In this document: positions 5,300 through 56,410 of the stretch, piece after piece
Layout: each line of letters starts with the position of its first letter
Numbering within the stretch: position 1 is the stretch's first letter
Assembly (NCBI RefSeq): GCF_002192415.1
Contig: NZ_CP021780.1
Location: 1,426,001 to 1,490,000, forward strand
DNA from: Paenibacillus donghaensis
GTDB taxonomy: Bacteria; Bacillota; Bacilli; Paenibacillales; Paenibacillaceae
Length of the DNA: 64,000 nucleotides
Direction: 5' to 3'
Notes under the pieces: generated by a model
What the model saw: the letters and a program-made list of their open reading frames with translations, nothing else
What the model was told of the DNA's origin: nothing
Database searches by the model: none
Translations under genes and position numbers: made by a program

Positions 5300-5470
5300 G
5301 TTTACTGCTTAGACCATCGCAGGATATGAGCCGCACAGATTTACCTTCTGGATCGCCCTATCATCAGTTCAGCCACCGATTTAAGTGCGATAAAGCATCT
5401 AAATTGTGGATTTTTTCCGTTTTCGAGTAAATAAGTGCGAAAGCGCATCTAATTTCTCGGAAAGCTCTAG
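5300..5470. mobile_element. Truncated MITE-like element with family A arms
   Basis: GTTTACTGCTTAGACC at 5300-5315 resembles the left terminal inverted repeat of the elements at 41943 and 54226. It is followed by family A arms, in which AAGTGCGA and GCATCTAA strings occur at about 5383-5400 and 5431-5453. No right-hand terminal repeat is seen before the converging nitroreductase gene at 5541, so the element appears cut short. The rest of the 5127-5540 gap shows no gene. Confidence 0.5.
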
Positions 5471-5540
5471 TGCACCACTCTACATCCTTCATGCTGTGGT
5501 TTCACAGCCTTTCCTGTGGATTGCCAAGCGTCCTCATGTG

Positions 5541-14272: not shown

Positions 14273-14436
14273 GCGGGGATATATGAGAAAGCACAGGTGG
14301 AACTGTGGGTTAAAGTGCGATATGTAATGTAACACAGATGTTCCAGCAAGCACGTCAGCGCCTGAATGTGGACCCTGATCCATCCAGGCGGTTGCTAGTA
14401 TATTCGTCTGCTCCAGCCCAGTTCGTATTTGCTATT

Positions 14437-15003
14437 GGACCGTATAGCCGCTATTTGCTTATTTTGGCCGCAGCTGCGGTTCTTGGGGACTGTATAGCCT
14501 CTATTGCTCCCAAATGGCGCATCAGCAAGAGCATTTGGAGCAAATAGAGGCTCCTCAGTCCGTAAGAAGCAAAAACAGCAGTGATTTGGCAAAATAGAGG
14601 CTCCTCGGTCCGCAACTTGCGTGCCACGGCAGATCGTGGCTGACTTACGGACCGTATAGCCTCTATTTGCTTATTTTGGCCACAGCTGCGGTTCTTGCGG
14701 ACTGTATAGCCTCTATTGCTCCCAAATGATGCATCTGCAAGGGCATTTGGAGCAAATAGGGGCTCCTCAGTCCGCAACTTGCGTGCCACGGCAGATCGTG
14801 GTTGACTTACGGACCGTATAGCCTCTATTTGCTTATTTTGGCCGCAGCTGCGGTTCTTGCGGACTGTATAGCCTCTATTGCTCCCAAATGATGCATCTGC
14901 AAGGGCATTTGGAGCAAATAGAGGCTCCTCAGTCCGTAAGAAGCAAAAATAGCAGTGATTTGGCAAAATAGAGGCTCCTCGGTCCGCAACTTGCGTGCCA
15001 CTG
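14437..15003. repeat. Family B repeat cluster, three units
   Basis: Three units begin with GGACCGTATAGCC at 14437, 14649 and 14811. A unit has arms of the type GCGGACTGTATAGCCTCTATT and its partner AAATAGAGGCTCCTCAGTCC, facing each other around an ATGCATCTGCAAGGGC loop, followed by an AACTTGCGTGCCACGGC linker. The first and third units contain an extra 50-base arm (GTAAGAAGCAAAAA...GGTCC). Open frames across it (LRTEEPLFAPNALADA-type peptides) follow from the repeat and are not annotated. Nothing else is seen in 14273-15078. Confidence 0.85.
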
Positions 15004-15825: not shown

Positions 15826-15976
15826 ATATTCTTTATGACCATTAAAGTAATTATAGCTTGAAAGTGTGAGTTCAACAATCCCGTTCGCAAAAATCCACAG
15901 CTTCGTTATTCAGTCACGCTTCGTCAGGCACAATAGTGGGTGGCTGCAGCGAAAATAGTTCGAAATCCCGTCCGCT

Positions 15977-16168
15977 GCGGACTGTATAGCCGCTAATTGC
16001 TTATTTTGGTCGCTGCTGCAGTTCTTGCGGACTGTATAGCCTCTATTGTTCCCAAATGATGCATCTGCAAGGGCATTTGGAGCAAATAGAGGCTCCTGAG
16101 TCCGTAAGAAGCAAAAAGTGCCCCGATTTGGCCGGATAAGGGCTATACGGTCCGCAACTTGCGTGCCT
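15977..16168. repeat. Family B repeat, one unit
   Basis: It starts GCGGACTGTATAGCCGCT and contains the same ATGCATCTGCAAGGGC loop, the AAGAAGCAAAAA arm and the closing CCGCAACTTGCGTGCC linker as the 14437 cluster. It is followed by a C-rich stretch (16169-16289) with no recognisable gene. Confidence 0.8.
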
Positions 16169-29304: not shown

Positions 29305-29623
29305 GTTACTACCGACCGTCCCCGCGATTTAGCGTGTTGCTCTGCAACCTTCAGAGTAATTAAGTGCGAAACTGCAACTAAATTCCACCGAAACTCCTGT
29401 CAGGGAACAAATAAGTGCGAATCTGCAACTATTTTCGAGAAAATCGCTTCTTTAAAGCTCAAAACTTCAAATTAGATGCTTATTTGCACTTATTTCCTCC
29501 AAAAAGGAAAAAATAGGCTAATTAGATGCGTTTTCGCAACTAAATTGGCGGACTCTCTTCTTATGAAGCTATCAAGAGGCTGAGGGTTTGATGCCCTTAT
29601 CATACGGAGGCCTAAATACTAAC
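29305..29623. mobile_element. MITE-like element with family A arms, 319 bp
   Basis: The left end GTTACTACCGACC and right end GGCCTAAATACTAAC are degenerate versions of the terminal inverted repeats at 54226-54543, and the lengths are 319 and 318 bases. The inside is collinear with that element: AAATAAGTGCGAATCTGCAA, then GCTCAAAACT-N-ATTAGATGC, then AATTAGATGCG. No reading frame is supported. It explains most of the non-coding stretch after 29226. Confidence 0.75.
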
Positions 29624-35210: not shown

Positions 35211-35283
35211 GGACTTGGCGGGAGCAGGGTGTGGAAAGCGCGGATTGCGCGCACCCAGCACCGTTCTACTCGCAGCCTATAGT

Positions 35284-35470
35284 TGCGGACCGTATAGCTT
35301 CTATATTGGGCGATTTTCACGATTTTGGCGGTTTAGCGGACTGCATAGCTCTCCCTCTGCCGCCAGAATGATTCCGATCGAAGCCAATTCTGGCGAATAG
35401 GGGCATCTGAGTCCGCTAAGCAAGCTAAAGGGCCGGATTTCAAGCAAATAGAGGCACCTGAGTCCGCAAT
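35284..35470. repeat. Family B repeat cluster
   Basis: GCGGACCGTATAGC starts the block; GCGGACTGCATAGC lies at about 35336 and two AATAGGGGCATC/AATAGAGGCACC-TGAGTCCGC arms face the other way (about 35396 and 35447). Sequence between the arms is different from the 14437 cluster, so copies share arms more than spacers. Confidence 0.75.
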
Positions 35471-41846: not shown

Positions 41847-41942
41847 TTTGCCTGGGAACGATAAAAGGTAAGCTGCAGATTGCTCCCACTTCCGCCGGAG
41901 TTGCTGAACCCTTAGGAATGACCTATATTAGTTGGATAAGCA

Positions 41943-42280
41943 GTTACTGCTTAGGTCCTCCTTTCCCTATGTGTTACTCGCCCAGCCTCTGATTCAACAC
42001 CCCGCACTAAAGAATAGTCAGGGAAGGGTGTCGCCCGTAACCCTCGCTTCGATTTCAGACGGTTGCGGACTCAGGAGCCCCTATTTGCTGTAAATAGGCA
42101 GGTTTGCAGGATTAACGGACCCAGGAGCCTCTATATTACAGAAAACCCTCGGTTTAGAGCCTGTTTTGACGTCTTAGGGGCTATACGGTCCGTAAGACTT
42201 CAAAATATTATACGGTCCGCTAGAAAAGGGGTTACCTATAGTTCAAGTGCTTGGGGTGTCGCAGGGTCCTAAGTAGTAAC
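41943..42280. mobile_element. MITE-like element with family B arms, 338 bp
   Basis: GTTACTGCTTAGGTCC (41943-41958) is the inverted match, one mismatch, of GGTCCTAAGTAGTAAC (42265-42280). These terminal repeats are the same as at 54226-54543. The inside, however, holds family B arms (42063-42215: GCGGACTCAGGAGCC, CGGACCCAGGAGCCTCTAT, GGGGCTATACGGTCCG), not family A. It lies between the island and the glucuronate regulator and carries no gene. Confidence 0.75.
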
Positions 42281-42329
42281 GATAAGCTTACTCATGATTG
42301 TGAACAGAACCTGAAGGAGTGCAGTACAT

Positions 42330-43043
42330 ATGATGAAGGTATCCCCCAAGCAGCCCGGTGAGAACAGCAAGGATTACTCCTACCGTGTGATTAAGCAGAA
42401 TATTATGTCGCTTACCCTGGCGCCAGGGCAGGTAATCAGCGAGATTGACTTGGCTGAAGCACTGCAGATTTCGAGAACTCCTGTCCGGGAGGTAATCGCG
42501 AAGCTGAAGGAAGAACATCTGATTGATGTGATCCCCCAAGTTGGAACCTATGTCTCCAAAATCACTGGTCAGCTCATTGAAGAGGCTGCGTTCATGCGGC
42601 TTACGCTGGAGCAGGAAATTCTGCTCCGCTCGTCCCGCTCTTTCCCGGCGGAGGTCCTGCCGGAGCTGAGAAGAAATGTTGCCCAGCAGGAGCTGCTGCT
42701 GGAGCAGCAGGGCAGAGAGCTGGATTTCCACCAGCTGGACACGGAATTCCATCAGCTGATCTTCCGCGGCAACCGCAGAGAGAATGTCTGGACAGCCATT
42801 ACACGGCTAAGCACCCATTACAACCGGATGCGGCTGCTCTCCGAGATGGAGCACAACTTCGGCGAAGCGGTCTCCCAGCACCGCGAGATGCTGCGCATCA
42901 TCGAGCTGCATCTGACAGAGCAGGTCGAACCGGCAGTGAGGCAGCATATTATTGAGCCGATGAAGGATTGGGAGCAGCTGTATCAGCCTGGAAGCAGATA
43001 TGCGGCTTATTTCGATGTTGGCTCGCCCATCGGATTGGCGTAA
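42330..43043 (+). CDS. GntR-family (FadR/FCD type) transcriptional regulator
   Basis: 237 residues. The N-terminal winged helix (about 12-78) includes YRVIKQNIMSLTLAPGQVIS, IDLAEALQISRTPVREVIAKL and VIPQVGTYVSKI. The FCD effector domain (about 90-225) shows H-x-x-D-x-x-F-H-x-x-I (HQLDTEFHQLIF), with Asp and His residues that bind a metal and a sugar acid in this family. AAGGAG lies 11 bases before ATG 42330. It precedes uxuA-uxuB-uxaC and a perfect palindrome at 43104; it is the likely regulator of glucuronate use. Confidence 0.9.
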   Translation: MMKVSPKQPGENSKDYSYRVIKQNIMSLTLAPGQVISEIDLAEALQISRTPVREVIAKLKEEHLIDVIPQVGTYVSKITGQLIEEAAFMRLTLEQEILLRSSRSFPAEVLPELRRNVAQQELLLEQQGRELDFHQLDTEFHQLIFRGNRRENVWTAITRLSTHYNRMRLLSEMEHNFGEAVSQHREMLRIIELHLTEQVEPAVRQHIIEPMKDWEQLYQPGSRYAAYFDVGSPIGLA

Positions 43044-52298: not shown

Positions 52299-54137
52299 AT
52301 GAATTACCGCAATTTAGAAGAATGTATAATCGATTTGGAGAAAAATGGGCATCTGGTCCGCATTACTGAAGAGGTGGACCCGCATCTGGAGATGGCCGCC
52401 ATTCATATGAAGGTATATGAGGCTGGCGGTCCGGCATTATTATTTGAAAAGGTCAAGGGATCCAGCTACCGTGCCGTATCGAATCTGTTTGGAACACTGG
52501 AGCGGAGCAAATTTATTTTCCGTGATACGTGGAAATCAACCCAGAACGTCATTGCGCTGCGCAATGATCCGATGAAGACGCTTAGGCAGCCTTTTAAATA
52601 CGTTGGCACCGGACTGTCCGCCCGCAAAGCATTGCCACTCAAGAAGCGGGGCAGCCTGCCCGCAGGCTTCCGCGAGATCCAAATCTCCGACCTGCCGCTG
52701 GTCAAGCATTGGCCGGAGGATGGCGGCGCATTTGTCACTCTGCCCCAGGTATATTCGGAGGACCCCGGCAAGCCGGGCATTATGAATTCCAACCTCGGGA
52801 TGTACCGCGTGCAGCTGAACGGCAATGAATATGAGCTGAACAAGGAGGTCGGCATTCATTACCAGATCCATCGCGGCATCGGCGTGCATCAGGCTGCGGC
52901 CAACAAGCTGGGCCAGCCGCTTAAGGTCAGTTGCTTCATCGGTGGTCCCCCTGCGCATACGCTGTCGGCGATTATGCCGCTGCCAGAGGGCATGAGCGAG
53001 CTTACCTTTGCAGGCCTGCTGTCCGGCCGCCACTTCAGCTACAGCTACGTAGACGGCTTCTGCATCAGCAATGACGCCGACTTCGTGATCACAGGAGAGA
53101 TTTATCCCGGCGAGACGAAGCCGGAAGGACCGTTCGGCGATCATCTGGGCTATTACAGCTTAACGCATCCGTTCCCCGTGATGCGGGTGCATAAAGTGTA
53201 CGCGAAGGAGCGTGCTATCTTCCCGTTTACTGTCGTAGGGCGGCCGCCGCAGGAGGATACAGCGTTCGGTGCATTGATTCATGAGCTGACCGGAGGCGCG
53301 GTCAAGCAGGAAATTCCCGGCGTGAAGGAGGTTCACGCTGTCGATGCCGCGGGCGTGCACCCGTTGCTGCTGGCGATCGGCAGCGAACGGTACACACCTT
53401 ATCAGCAGTTGAAGCAGCCGGCGGAGATTCTGACGATTGCGAGCCGCATCCTGGGAACGGGACAGCTGAGTCTGGCCAAGTTCCTCTTCATTACCGCGGA
53501 AGAGGGGCAGCCGCTGGACATCCATGATATCGCGGCCTTCTTCGGCTATATCCTGGAGCGGATCAATCTGCGCCGGGATCTGCATTTCCATACCCATACA
53601 ACAATCGATACGCTGGATTACTCCGGTACGGGCCTGAACAGCGGCAGCAAGGTGATCCTTGCGGCAGTAGGCGAGAAGAAACGCGAGCTGTGCCGCGAGG
53701 TGCCGCATAGTCTGCTGAGATTGCCGGAAGAATACCAGGTGAAGCTGGTGATGCCGGGCATAGTGGCTCTGCAGGGACCGAAGTTCAGCAGCTATGCTGA
53801 AGCGCAGCAGGAGCTGGCTGCACTTAAGGCCTTGATTGAAGAGCAGGGGCCGCTTGATTCCTGCCCGATGCTGATTCTCTGTGATGACAGTGAATTCATC
53901 AGCGCCCATCTGGATAATTTTCTGTGGGCTACCTTTACACGGAGCAACCCTTCCCACGATATCTATGGGGTGAACAGCGGGTATGAGAATAAACACTGGG
54001 CCTGTGACAACGTAATTATTGATGCCCGGAGCAAGCCCCATCAGGCACCGCCGCTGATCCCTGATCCGGCGGTCGAGCAGAACATCAAGCGGCTGTTTAC
54101 CGAAGGCGGTAGCTTAAGCAGAATGCGTTTGTCTTAA
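52299..54137 (+). CDS. UbiD-family prenyl-FMN decarboxylase
   Basis: 612 residues; GAGCCATGAG is a weak ribosome site before ATG 52299. The UbiD fold is shown by IHMKVYEAGGPALLFEKVKG, MNSNLGMYRVQ, YQIHRGIGVH and the acidic catalytic block ITGEIYPGETKPEGPFGDHLGYYS (two conserved Glu with Asp). The enzyme needs prenylated FMN made by UbiX, which is not in the window. It is longer than E. coli UbiD (about 500), with a C-terminal extension. It may work in menaquinone synthesis or aromatic acid decarboxylation; which one cannot be decided. Confidence 0.9.
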   Translation: MNYRNLEECIIDLEKNGHLVRITEEVDPHLEMAAIHMKVYEAGGPALLFEKVKGSSYRAVSNLFGTLERSKFIFRDTWKSTQNVIALRNDPMKTLRQPFKYVGTGLSARKALPLKKRGSLPAGFREIQISDLPLVKHWPEDGGAFVTLPQVYSEDPGKPGIMNSNLGMYRVQLNGNEYELNKEVGIHYQIHRGIGVHQAAANKLGQPLKVSCFIGGPPAHTLSAIMPLPEGMSELTFAGLLSGRHFSYSYVDGFCISNDADFVITGEIYPGETKPEGPFGDHLGYYSLTHPFPVMRVHKVYAKERAIFPFTVVGRPPQEDTAFGALIHELTGGAVKQEIPGVKEVHAVDAAGVHPLLLAIGSERYTPYQQLKQPAEILTIASRILGTGQLSLAKFLFITAEEGQPLDIHDIAAFFGYILERINLRRDLHFHTHTTIDTLDYSGTGLNSGSKVILAAVGEKKRELCREVPHSLLRLPEEYQVKLVMPGIVALQGPKFSSYAEAQQELAALKALIEEQGPLDSCPMLILCDDSEFISAHLDNFLWATFTRSNPSHDIYGVNSGYENKHWACDNVIIDARSKPHQAPPLIPDPAVEQNIKRLFTEGGSLSRMRLS

Positions 54138-54204: not shown

Positions 54205-54225
54205 ATATATAAATATAAGAAGTAT

Positions 54226-54543
54226 GTTACTACTTAGGTCCCTCTGAGGATGTAGAATGCTCCCCAAAGTGTTTTCAGAGAAATTAGATGCGAAAGTGCA
54301 TCTAATTTCAGCTGAAACTCATGTTATGGGCAAATAAGTGCGAATCTGCAACTATTTTGGAGGAAAACGTTTGTTTCACGCTCAAAACTCGAGATTAGAT
54401 GCGTATTCGCACTTATTTGCTCCAAAACAGAAAAAATCGGTGAATTAGATGCGTATTCGCACTTAAATCGGTGGCTGGACTAAGGTGGTGCTCAAGAAAT
54501 CACATCTTGGATGCTCCTATCTTATGGAGTCCTAAGTAGTAAC
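54226..54543. mobile_element. MITE-like element with family A arms, 318 bp
   Basis: The left end GTTACTACTTAGGTC (54226-54240) is the inverse of GTCCTAAGTAGTAAC (54529-54543) with one mismatch. Family A arms lie inside: ATTAGATGCGAAAGTGCATC (54290), AAATAAGTGCGAATCTGCAA (54331), ATTAGATGCGTATTCGCACT (54394 and 54445). A second right end, GGGTCCTAAGTAGTAAC (54609-54625), follows with a related 80-base stretch, so the right part seems duplicated. There is no gene in 54138-54721. Confidence 0.8.
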
Positions 54544-54657
54544 CAGATTCGCAACTAATTCGGTGGATTGGACTGATGTGGCGATCAGACTTTGATGCCT
54601 ATCCTATTGGGTCCTAAGTAGTAACAGAATTATAAGCTATACGCCATTAATATTCCT

Positions 54658-54721: not shown

Positions 54722-56410
54722 TTATTTTGCAGCAGTAGCTTCAGCCGATACGGATTTGTACCATTCGTTCACTTCTTTAGTGATCTGGTCGCCGCCGTTG
54801 GCTTTCCAGTTGGTTACGAATTCATCAAAAGCATCAACCGGCAAATTGCCGTAAATGATCTTGTTGAAAGTTTCCAGCTCGGATTGATTCAGCAGGTTCC
54901 ATTTGGAGACCATGGTTGGTGTAGCTGCACCAGTAAAGTAGTTCTGTTTGCGGATATCAATTTGAGACATAACAACTTTACCAGCAGCCCAGTTTTCCGG
55001 TTTGCGGAACTCAGCCATCTGTTTCTCATAAGGGGTTTCCGGTTTCTCGCCGTCAGCAAGCTTAACCAAAGATTTCATGAACAGATCCGGAATACGCGGA
55101 GGACCGGTCAAGAAAGGAAACTCGTTGGAGAATTCTTTGATCTTGTCTTTGTTACTGGTTGGCTGACCGTCAATGATATCCCAGTCATAGCCTTTGGCGA
55201 AGCCATATTCATATTCGCTGCCGGCAGCCGGGTTGGCCAGATTCTCCAACAGATAGTTGTAATACAGGAAAATCGCTTCTGGATGTTTGGCATCCTTGTT
55301 GATCATGATACTTGCGTTGACGCCAGTGTTCTGCCATTTGGTTCCGATCAGTCCGTCCGGACCGGCAGGAACCGGATAAGCTTTGTACTTGGAACCAGGA
55401 ACGGTCTTCAGCAGGTCGGGAGCCGGCCAATCCGGTACCCAGTTGGCGCCGGGCAGAACTCCTGCAGCGCCTTTGGTCCAGCTCTCAGCGGCCTTTCCTT
55501 CATCCCACAGCGCGGAGTCGGCATGGATATAACCTTTGTCCATCCATTCGCTCAGCTTAGCCAAGGCTTGTTTCGCACCCGGGTTGACAGAGCCGTATTC
55601 CAGGTTGCCGTCGGCATCCTTATTCCACTGCTCTTGAACGGTGCCGTAAGCACCGAACAGCCAGTCAAGCTGACCCATCCAGGTATTGGTTTTGTTCTTC
55701 AGTGAGATGGCCAGCGGGTATACGTCTTTGGCAGCCAGACCATCCGGGTTCTGGTTCTTGAATTTATCCATGATGTTCTCAAGATCAGCGATGGTCTTAG
55801 GAGCTTCCAGATTCAGCTTCTCCATCCAGTCTTCACGGAGCCAGAGCAGGGTATCGTCATTGTCCGTATATTCCATGATTGGCATATTGTATTTCTTGCC
55901 GTCTTTGGTGAAGGGATACCACAGCTCAGGATGAGCGGCCGCATGTTCCTTCAGAATAGGGCTGGCATATTTCTCGAACATGTCGTCAATAGCGATGAAC
56001 TGGCCGGAATCAATCAGCTGGTTCGTGAGCACGGCATTGGATGGCACGGATACGAAGTCAGGCAGTTTCTCGCCGGAAGCGATAGCCAGCTGAAGCTTCT
56101 GTCTGTACTGGTCGTCACTAGCCGGATACCAGGTATCCTTGTGTTTCATTCCCAGCGTCTCCAGCATCCAGCGGTCATGGACGTTGTTTTCCTTGGTGTC
56201 GCCTTGAACATATTTTTTTATCGGCATCAGCACAGAGCTGAATTCGATTGGCGGATCGTATTTACCCGCTGCAAAAGCGGCGTCAGCTTCCGAGGAACCT
56301 GCGGCATTGTTGCCGTTCGCTGCGTTGTTGCCATTATTCCCGCCGCATGCTGTAAGCGTAACCAACGATAGAACGACGAGCAGCGATCCTAATTTTTTGA
56401 ATTTGGTCAT
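54722..56410 (-). CDS. Extracellular solute-binding lipoprotein, LplA/YtcQ-like
   Basis: 562 residues with a signal peptide and LTAC lipobox (Cys22), a Gly/Asn/Ala-rich tether, and a long class I sugar-binding fold: WMLETLGMKHKDTWYPASDD, LLWLREDWMEKLNLEAPKT, ADLENIMDKF, GMFF-like lid and a C-terminal FDEFVTNWKANGGDQITKEV. A GGGGGAAT ribosome site precedes ATG 56410. Its permeases are the divergent genes at 60084 and 61051, with the two-component genes between. Size and neighbours match importers of plant polysaccharide fragments; the substrate is unknown. Paralogue of the partial gene at the window start. Confidence 0.92.
   Translation of the reverse strand: MTKFKKLGSLLVVLSLVTLTACGGNNGNNAANGNNAAGSSEADAAFAAGKYDPPIEFSSVLMPIKKYVQGDTKENNVHDRWMLETLGMKHKDTWYPASDDQYRQKLQLAIASGEKLPDFVSVPSNAVLTNQLIDSGQFIAIDDMFEKYASPILKEHAAAHPELWYPFTKDGKKYNMPIMEYTDNDDTLLWLREDWMEKLNLEAPKTIADLENIMDKFKNQNPDGLAAKDVYPLAISLKNKTNTWMGQLDWLFGAYGTVQEQWNKDADGNLEYGSVNPGAKQALAKLSEWMDKGYIHADSALWDEGKAAESWTKGAAGVLPGANWVPDWPAPDLLKTVPGSKYKAYPVPAGPDGLIGTKWQNTGVNASIMINKDAKHPEAIFLYYNYLLENLANPAAGSEYEYGFAKGYDWDIIDGQPTSNKDKIKEFSNEFPFLTGPPRIPDLFMKSLVKLADGEKPETPYEKQMAEFRKPENWAAGKVVMSQIDIRKQNYFTGAATPTMVSKWNLLNQSELETFNKIIYGNLPVDAFDEFVTNWKANGGDQITKEVNEWYKSVSAEATAAK

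Follow-up and report, generated by a model that had tools for sequence, protein, structure and literature searches.

Putative IS66-type miniature elements with exchangeable four-unit array interiors in Paenibacillus donghaensis

Bacterial miniature inverted-repeat transposable elements (MITEs) such as MITEPsy1 are described as short, non-coding elements that share their terminal inverted repeats with a parent and duplicate their target (PMC3189936). ISDge4 of Deinococcus geothermalis, an IS66-family member of the ISBst12 group as that group is defined in PMC12898284, has a single transposase gene, an 8-bp direct repeat and the ends GTGACTACTCAGCA and GTAACTGCTCAGCA. Insertion sequences that target REP palindromes insert at or near the symmetry axis of dispersed palindromes, which are often clustered (Tobes and Pareja 2006, PMC1525189); the cases given there belong to IS3, IS110 and IS4, and the word IS66 does not occur in the main text. 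BIME- and REPIN-type repeats are short palindromic units that cluster between genes and occur in both orientations, and they are linked to a REP-associated tyrosine transposase; the families treated in PMC3733652 carry GTAG/CGTC tags, and the text on them does not contain the word Paenibacillus.

Here we describe blocks in a 64,000-nucleotide stretch of the Paenibacillus donghaensis genome (hereafter the window) that resemble each of these systems in several of the respects just named. Their ends, of the form GT[TA]ACTACTTAGG, are close to those reported for ISDge4. Beyond what is described for ISDge4, this genome has hundreds of such ends, mostly without a transposase, with arrays as cargo and with a preference for palindromic targets. 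Unlike MITEPsy1-type MITEs, one pair of ends encloses several interiors of the same internal geometry, and unlike in the described REP targeting, the MITEs of the transposon themselves carry some of the target repeats. In contrast to BIMEs and REPINs, the units here keep a near-fixed + + - - order and a 50/61/50 spacing across differing unit sequences. The explanation that accounts best for these features, and that we regard as very probably right, is that of IS66-type MITEs with captured arrays and a preference for one unit family, the A-type units, as target. As far as the MITEs are concerned, this explanation is of a known kind; it does not account for the fixed geometry of the array.

Terminal ends, target duplications and parent insertion sequences

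The elements of the window, which by eye sit between the main ORFs, are the following.

54226-54625, plus strand: putative composite family-A MITE, best read as an outer element with a second A insertion in a last unit (ends; 7/8 target duplication)
54226-54241, plus strand: left terminal inverted repeat GTTACTACTTAGGTCC (end scan)
54528-54543, minus strand: right terminal inverted repeat closing the inner insertion (end scan); after it stand cagattcg and CAACTAATT, the right-hand half of an A unit
54610-54625, minus strand: right terminal inverted repeat of the outer element (end scan, duplication)
54218-54225: target-site duplication, left copy agaagtat
54626-54633: target-site duplication, right copy agaattat, 7/8
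54285-54465: four A-type inverted-repeat units forming an array (cores at 54285-54304, 54335-54354, 54396-54415 and 54446-54465; spacing 50/61/50)
29305-29623, plus strand: putative degenerate family-A MITE (four units from 29361, 29412, 29473 and 29523; spacing 51/61/50)
41943-42280, plus strand: putative family-B MITE of 338 bp, upstream of an ORF at 42330 (GntR-type regulator-like by eye)
41935-41942: target-site duplication, left copy gataagca
42281-42288: target-site duplication, right copy gataagct, 7/8
42063-42195: B-type units (centres 42073.5 (+), 42123.5 (+) and 42184.5 (-); the fourth missed by the pattern)
5301-5488, minus strand: truncated, inverted family-A fragment with one degenerate end (3 mismatches)
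14433-14989: B-type array of 11 units, without IS66 ends (distances 50, 61, 50, 51, 50, 61, 51, 50, 61, 50)
15975-16157: B-type array without IS66 ends, four units (50/61/50)
35283-35469: B-type array with three recognised units and without IS66 ends (distances 114, 51)

A preliminary description of this DNA held that three of these blocks are bounded by shared inverted ends. In a window scan, the 13-base end was exact at 54226, 54531-54543, 54613-54625 and 42268-42280, and was found with one mismatch at 41943, two at 29611-29623 and three at 5301. The left end at 29305, GTTACTACCGACC, is degenerate; it has more than three mismatches and is absent from the list of matches with at most three. 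The ends with at most two mismatches are real, and that at 5301, like the one at 29305, is degenerate. Within the window alone, the number of 13-mer ends with up to three mismatches was at chance level (11 against a mean of 7.9, with 16 of 100 shuffles reaching 11). In the 8,542,333-base (8.54-Mb) genome, the 16-bp end GTTACTACTTAGGACC gave 439 matches with at most two mismatches (211 + 228) against five for the reversed control (3 + 2), and the 318-bp and 338-bp blocks had 73 and 44 matches, respectively. The further genome copies that a mobile element was expected to have are thus many. Without mismatches, the 16-base end occurred in three of 100 genomes of the genus, 225 times in the present genome, twice in genome G085 and once in G018, and in a relatives search none of the 59 other genomes, 36 of which belong to congeners, had a match to the 318-bp block.

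An element-free orthologous site was found as well. The interval 54226-54625 is flanked by a UbiD-like ORF (52299-54137) and an extracellular binding-protein ORF (54722-56410), both named by eye from their translations. In genome G122 the same two genes are adjacent, with an interval about 430 bp shorter and no such end. The gene pair is also kept in genomes G121 and G107, where the DNA between the two genes is different and lacks a pair of such ends; in G121 there is one lone end match with four mismatches. A terminator or another gene-linked structure, the reading that had been set against a mobile element, is rejected on the grounds of the hundreds of dispersed ends, the target duplications and this element-free site. 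A search of the window for known structured RNAs in Rfam gave no match at gathering thresholds.

Target duplications were scored for 74 innermost left-right end pairs at most 500 bp apart, in loci of the present genome that had mostly been fetched by end or element similarity and not at random. Perfect 8-bp flanking duplications were present in 32 of the 74 pairs and one-mismatch duplications in a further 18, compared with 1.15 and 4.03, respectively, upon random re-pairing of the flanks. Duplications of 9-12 bp were absent among the 74 pairs, and one of 7 bp was seen. Within the window, the duplications around 41943-42280 and 54226-54625 match at seven of eight positions each, the one at 29305-29623 has eroded to 5/8 (ataatgta/ataaggat, by eye), and the pair 54226/54543 has none. 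The earlier statement that there is no clear target-site duplication was thus mistaken for the genome and for the window.

The 82 bp past 54543 (54544-54625) form an A-element tail with 96% identity to the family member A310. As this tail begins in the middle of the last unit, the most fitting reading of 54543 is that a second insertion into an A unit has its right end there, and the stretch between the two left ends has presumably been lost. The end noted previously at 54609-54625 as an extra right end is indeed present, exact over 54613-54625, and closes the outer element. The supposed left end at 5300 does belong to a family-A fragment with a single end, and this fragment comes from an A element that is truncated and stands in reverse orientation. 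The assignment of the first two blocks to family A (82% identity over 202 bp between 54226-54543 and 29305-29623) and of the third to family B was borne out.

A transposase gene between the same ends, the missing partner in the preliminary description, is present in the genome. PF03050 matched at six places, comprising three intact insertion sequences, two fragments, and one place with none of these ends within three mismatches in the surrounding 5 kb. The three intact copies are 1602-1627 bp long, are bounded by these ends (0-1 mismatch each) and have perfect 8-bp duplications (cacttttg, caaaaagg and cgatatcg). Each consists of one ORF of 501-509 aa that fills the 1.6-kb element, without tnpA or tnpB, as in the ISBst12 group. 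Two of the transposases align as identical and the third is 86% identical to both. The transposase at locus L098 scored 170.6 bits with PF03050, 38.7 bits with zf-IS66 and 315.7 bits with NF033517 (cut-off 180), so that Pfam and NCBIfam assign these proteins to the IS66 family as DDE transposases with a zinc-finger domain. IS66-family ends start with GTAA; the present elements have ends starting GT(A/T)A together with the 8-bp duplication. All three intact copies are located in A-type units, and the insertion sequence at locus L100 is nested in another end-bounded element which has its own duplication, catatttg.

For relatives of the transposase, GTDB genomes were scanned and the best 80 loci kept, among which the own genome possibly does not figure; 35 IS66-related loci (32 of these 80 and three others) were then examined for ends. 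A repeat with an 8-bp duplication was called in 19 of the 35 and not in the other 16. In 18 of the 19, the ends were of the GT[TA]ACTA[CT]T[TC]AG type (GTTACTACTTAGG in 12, GTAACTACTTAGG in three and GTAACTATTCAG-like in three), the end of the remaining locus (L199) being apparently unrelated. The same or near-identical ends with 8-bp duplications therefore occur in relatives of other species and genera. Genome G085 has one intact and one interrupted IS66 copy (L095, L096); the intact transposase is 46% identical to that of the present genome and its element has the same end.

Taken together, the 439 ends, the 8-bp duplications and the intact IS66 elements with the same ends mark the blocks, as judged from sequence, as putative IS66 (ISBst12-like) MITEs. 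They are short, have terminal inverted repeats and a fixed 8-bp duplication, lack a transposase gene and coexist with a parent that has the same ends. Recurrent families measure 269-425 bp, and single end pairs of 74-251 bp also occur. Three dissimilar interiors are found on the same ends: A (A310, A318), B with its relatives C, E and F (298-425 bp), and D (269-280 bp). The view of a modular, non-autonomous, MITE-like element with shared ends and exchangeable insides is thus supported by the copies, the same-end transposase and the element-free site; what it had missed are the IS66 parent, the duplications, the double role of the A arms as content and target, and the fact that the insides form one class of four-unit arrays.

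MITEs classically arise by internal deletion of an insertion sequence, and the arms could then be its remnants. The shared ends fit such an origin, and the first 26 bp of the element F412 are those of the insertion sequence. However, only three of 16 tested elements (E425, E414 and F412) showed any similarity, limited to 25-31 bp at an end, and the other 13 had no match to the two insertion sequences at E 1e-4. Moreover, the A, B and D interiors are unlike one another, and A and B arrays recur without ends. Internal deletion is thereby largely refuted as a source of the tested interiors, and we regard it as highly improbable.

Two single elements deserve mention. A 74-bp element (locus L028, 1085-1158) has both ends and a perfect duplication and no array, which means that arrays are not needed for spread. 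At locus L029 (2042-2439), a D-type MITE (G398) has an extra foldback insert of about 100 bp near position 100, apparently another small element, and a second right end.

Insertion at the centre of A-type units

Among the 50 insertions with a duplication (at most one mismatch), 38 lie at the centre of A-type units, TAGATGC-N6-GCATCTA, when both half-sites jointly match at least 10 of 12 letters; the duplication is typically C-N6-G. With stricter matching, each half-site reached at least 5/6 in 36 of the 50 insertions and both reached 6/6 in 26. The block at 41943-42280 is one of the two weakest among the 38. In the 12 insertions outside units, T and A were found at positions -6 and -5 with frequencies of 0.79 and 0.71, compared with 0.29 and 0.28 in the far flanks; one of these 12 sites (L029) comes from the inner pair of ends in a nested element, the outer pair of which lies in a unit. 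Several A elements (L005, L107, L011 and L132) themselves stand outside A units. A lower share was seen in an evenly spaced 800-kb sample, where an A-like half-unit (at least 5/6) stood at the right distance from 10 of the 23 left ends and from 8 of the 27 right ends, compared with 1.1% of random positions. These data suggest that the A-type units are a preferred target of the transposase.

The same register was seen in P. faecis, where all four copies are centred in TGC-N6-GCA inverted repeats with CCTG- or GATG-like half-sites. Apart from P. faecis, the insertion sequences of other species among the 35 loci had no palindrome evident by eye at their sites, and the preference for palindromes is therefore not universal. 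In 800 kb of the present genome, inverted repeats that combine a TGC/GCA core with 5-bp arms (at most one mismatch) peaked at a loop length of 6 (40 repeats), with 5-11 repeats at lengths 2-5 and 7-10.

Clustering in A units might also reflect survivorship, with other insertions lost by selection and old elements serving as safe ground. The position of the window elements between the main ORFs is in line with this, nesting in old copies would be harmless, and in the evenly spaced sample an A half-unit adjoins less than half of the ends. Survivorship would nevertheless not predict that 38 of 50 insertions fall on the unit centre, as the unit core makes up only 20 bp of a 310-bp element, nor that insertions outside units retain a TA...TA symmetry and that P. 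faecis copies keep the same register in other inverted repeats. We therefore consider it quite unlikely.

It is somewhat less unlikely, though still improbable, that the units act as hairpins (cruciforms or RNA stem-loops) and that this hairpin structure is what the transposase recognises. Insertion into REP palindromes is known (PMC1525189), and the single-strand fold of 54226-54625 is far better than that of shuffled sequences (z -8.9, 0 of 100). On the other hand, the family-B block folds modestly better than its shuffles (z -2.2), and both half-sites carried equal arm variants in only 8 of 47 units, where 15.4 would be expected if they varied independently. Base-paired hairpins are thus unsupported by the arm variants. 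The half-sites match each other no more than by chance, which argues for recognition of the duplex, and we favour a transposase that would recognise the inverted-repeat duplex and not a paired stem.

Four-unit arrays with and without ends

The insides of the elements consist of four inverted-repeat units of about 22 bp in the order + + - -. The unit spacing is 50/61/50 in all four of B369, C298, E425 and F412, and complete A arrays have 50 or 51, 61, and 50 or 51 bp. Among D elements the spacing is 51/62/51 in D279b, incomplete in D280 (51/113) and partly different in D269 (51/62/41). A survey of 864 kb (40 stretches and the window; permitted distances 48-63 or 108-115 bp) returned 15 A and 16 B arrays, in which nearly all distances were 50, 51 or 61 bp. 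IS66 ends with at most three mismatches stood within 260 bp on both sides of 10 of these 31 arrays and on one side of eight, and 13 had none; the chance of a left end in 260 bp is 0.01. Three end-free arrays lie in the window (14433-14989, 15975-16157 and 35283-35469). A covariance model built from two A units had a poor predicted structure with nine pairs and was left unused.

Arrays of this geometry also occur in other species. In loci of G101, P. faecis, P. eucommiae and P. alginolyticus, TGC-N6-GCA units follow one another at 49-51 and 59-62 bp, and a few distances are 80-119 bp; the places in the latter two species were hand-picked, partly for closely standing pairs. B-like units are present at low number in congeners, with a match in 44 of 100 genomes, the present one included. 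At 20 hand-picked B-like places in eight other genomes, a full 50/61/50 array (each distance within 1) was found 13 times, a partial one four times and none three times, when a second pattern match 11 bp from a unit was disregarded in five loci. The end-free arrays of other species had no common terminal repeat at their boundaries by eye. Since arrays occur without ends both here and in other Paenibacillus genomes, we conclude that they form a separate class of repeat, to which the ends are added as a second layer. In register, A and B arrays are 34% identical, compared with 26% for shuffles, which neither proves nor disproves a remote common origin.

Units of the CCTGC type were also noticed. 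CCTGC-N6-GCAGG palindromes number 447 in G124 (P. ferrarius) and 198 in G123 (P. faecis), with 8 and 20 in the reversed controls, and 150 in the present genome against 6. Locus L130 (8701-9760) has four tandem copies of a repeat of about 324 bp, each with two such units 50 bp apart and, by eye, two GATGTA...GCAGGTA units. In the present genome, locus L142 (9060-9300) has a CCTGC-type array with two recognised units 62 bp apart and, by eye, two weaker units about 50 bp outside; no IS66 ends were seen.

The near-constant 50/61/50 geometry with and without ends, across unit families and several species, and the 13 of 31 surveyed arrays without an end within three mismatches raise the question whether function resides in the four-unit array itself, perhaps as a binding array for a host protein or as a structured RNA, with the IS66 ends as incidental passengers. 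We view this as possible, though on balance doubtful. It leaves the ends, the duplications and the matching insertion sequences unexplained, and the copy number is very uneven among species, as for mobile DNA: the consensus A-type unit has 814 copies in the present genome and 13 in G101, against 0-2 in each of the other 98 genomes. A function of the arrays would be compatible with captured arrays in IS66-type MITEs and does not exclude them. Among the papers listed in literature searches (titles and starts of abstracts, with subscription journals mostly outside them), none describes the array or an IS66 MITE in palindromes. With slightly less than even confidence, we tentatively propose that Paenibacillus carries an undescribed class of intergenic repeats, with four units + + - - at 50/61/50 bp and a geometry that outlasts the sequence, and that an IS66-type element lands in one unit family and has packaged arrays, thereby spreading its own targets.

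Proposed mechanism and meaning

The shared ends and duplications suggest that the transposase would act in trans on DNA between two inverted copies of GTTACTACTTAGGnCC, and that insertion would duplicate 8 bp of the target. The arrays (+ + - -, about 50/61/50 bp), as a separate repeat class of the genus, were probably captured by these ends more than once (A, B and D), because different unit families coexist with and without ends; the capture step and its order are our reconstruction. The transposase may prefer a symmetric target of approximately TAGnTG-N8-CAnCTA. Since A-type units fit this preference closely, a complete A array would offer about four landing sites, so that new copies could enter old ones and generate nested, multi-ended blocks with swapped contents. 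Later recombination or deletion may then have left orphan ends such as 54543 and 54625.

The locus provides a clear case of several interiors on one pair of transposon ends, in which the parent is intact, the target is defined and nesting in older copies is built in. The arrays add a repeat architecture that keeps its 50/61/50 spacing though not its sequence, which asks for a functional reason. If the undescribed array class and its packaging by IS66 ends are confirmed, this would be a transposon that disperses its own targets.
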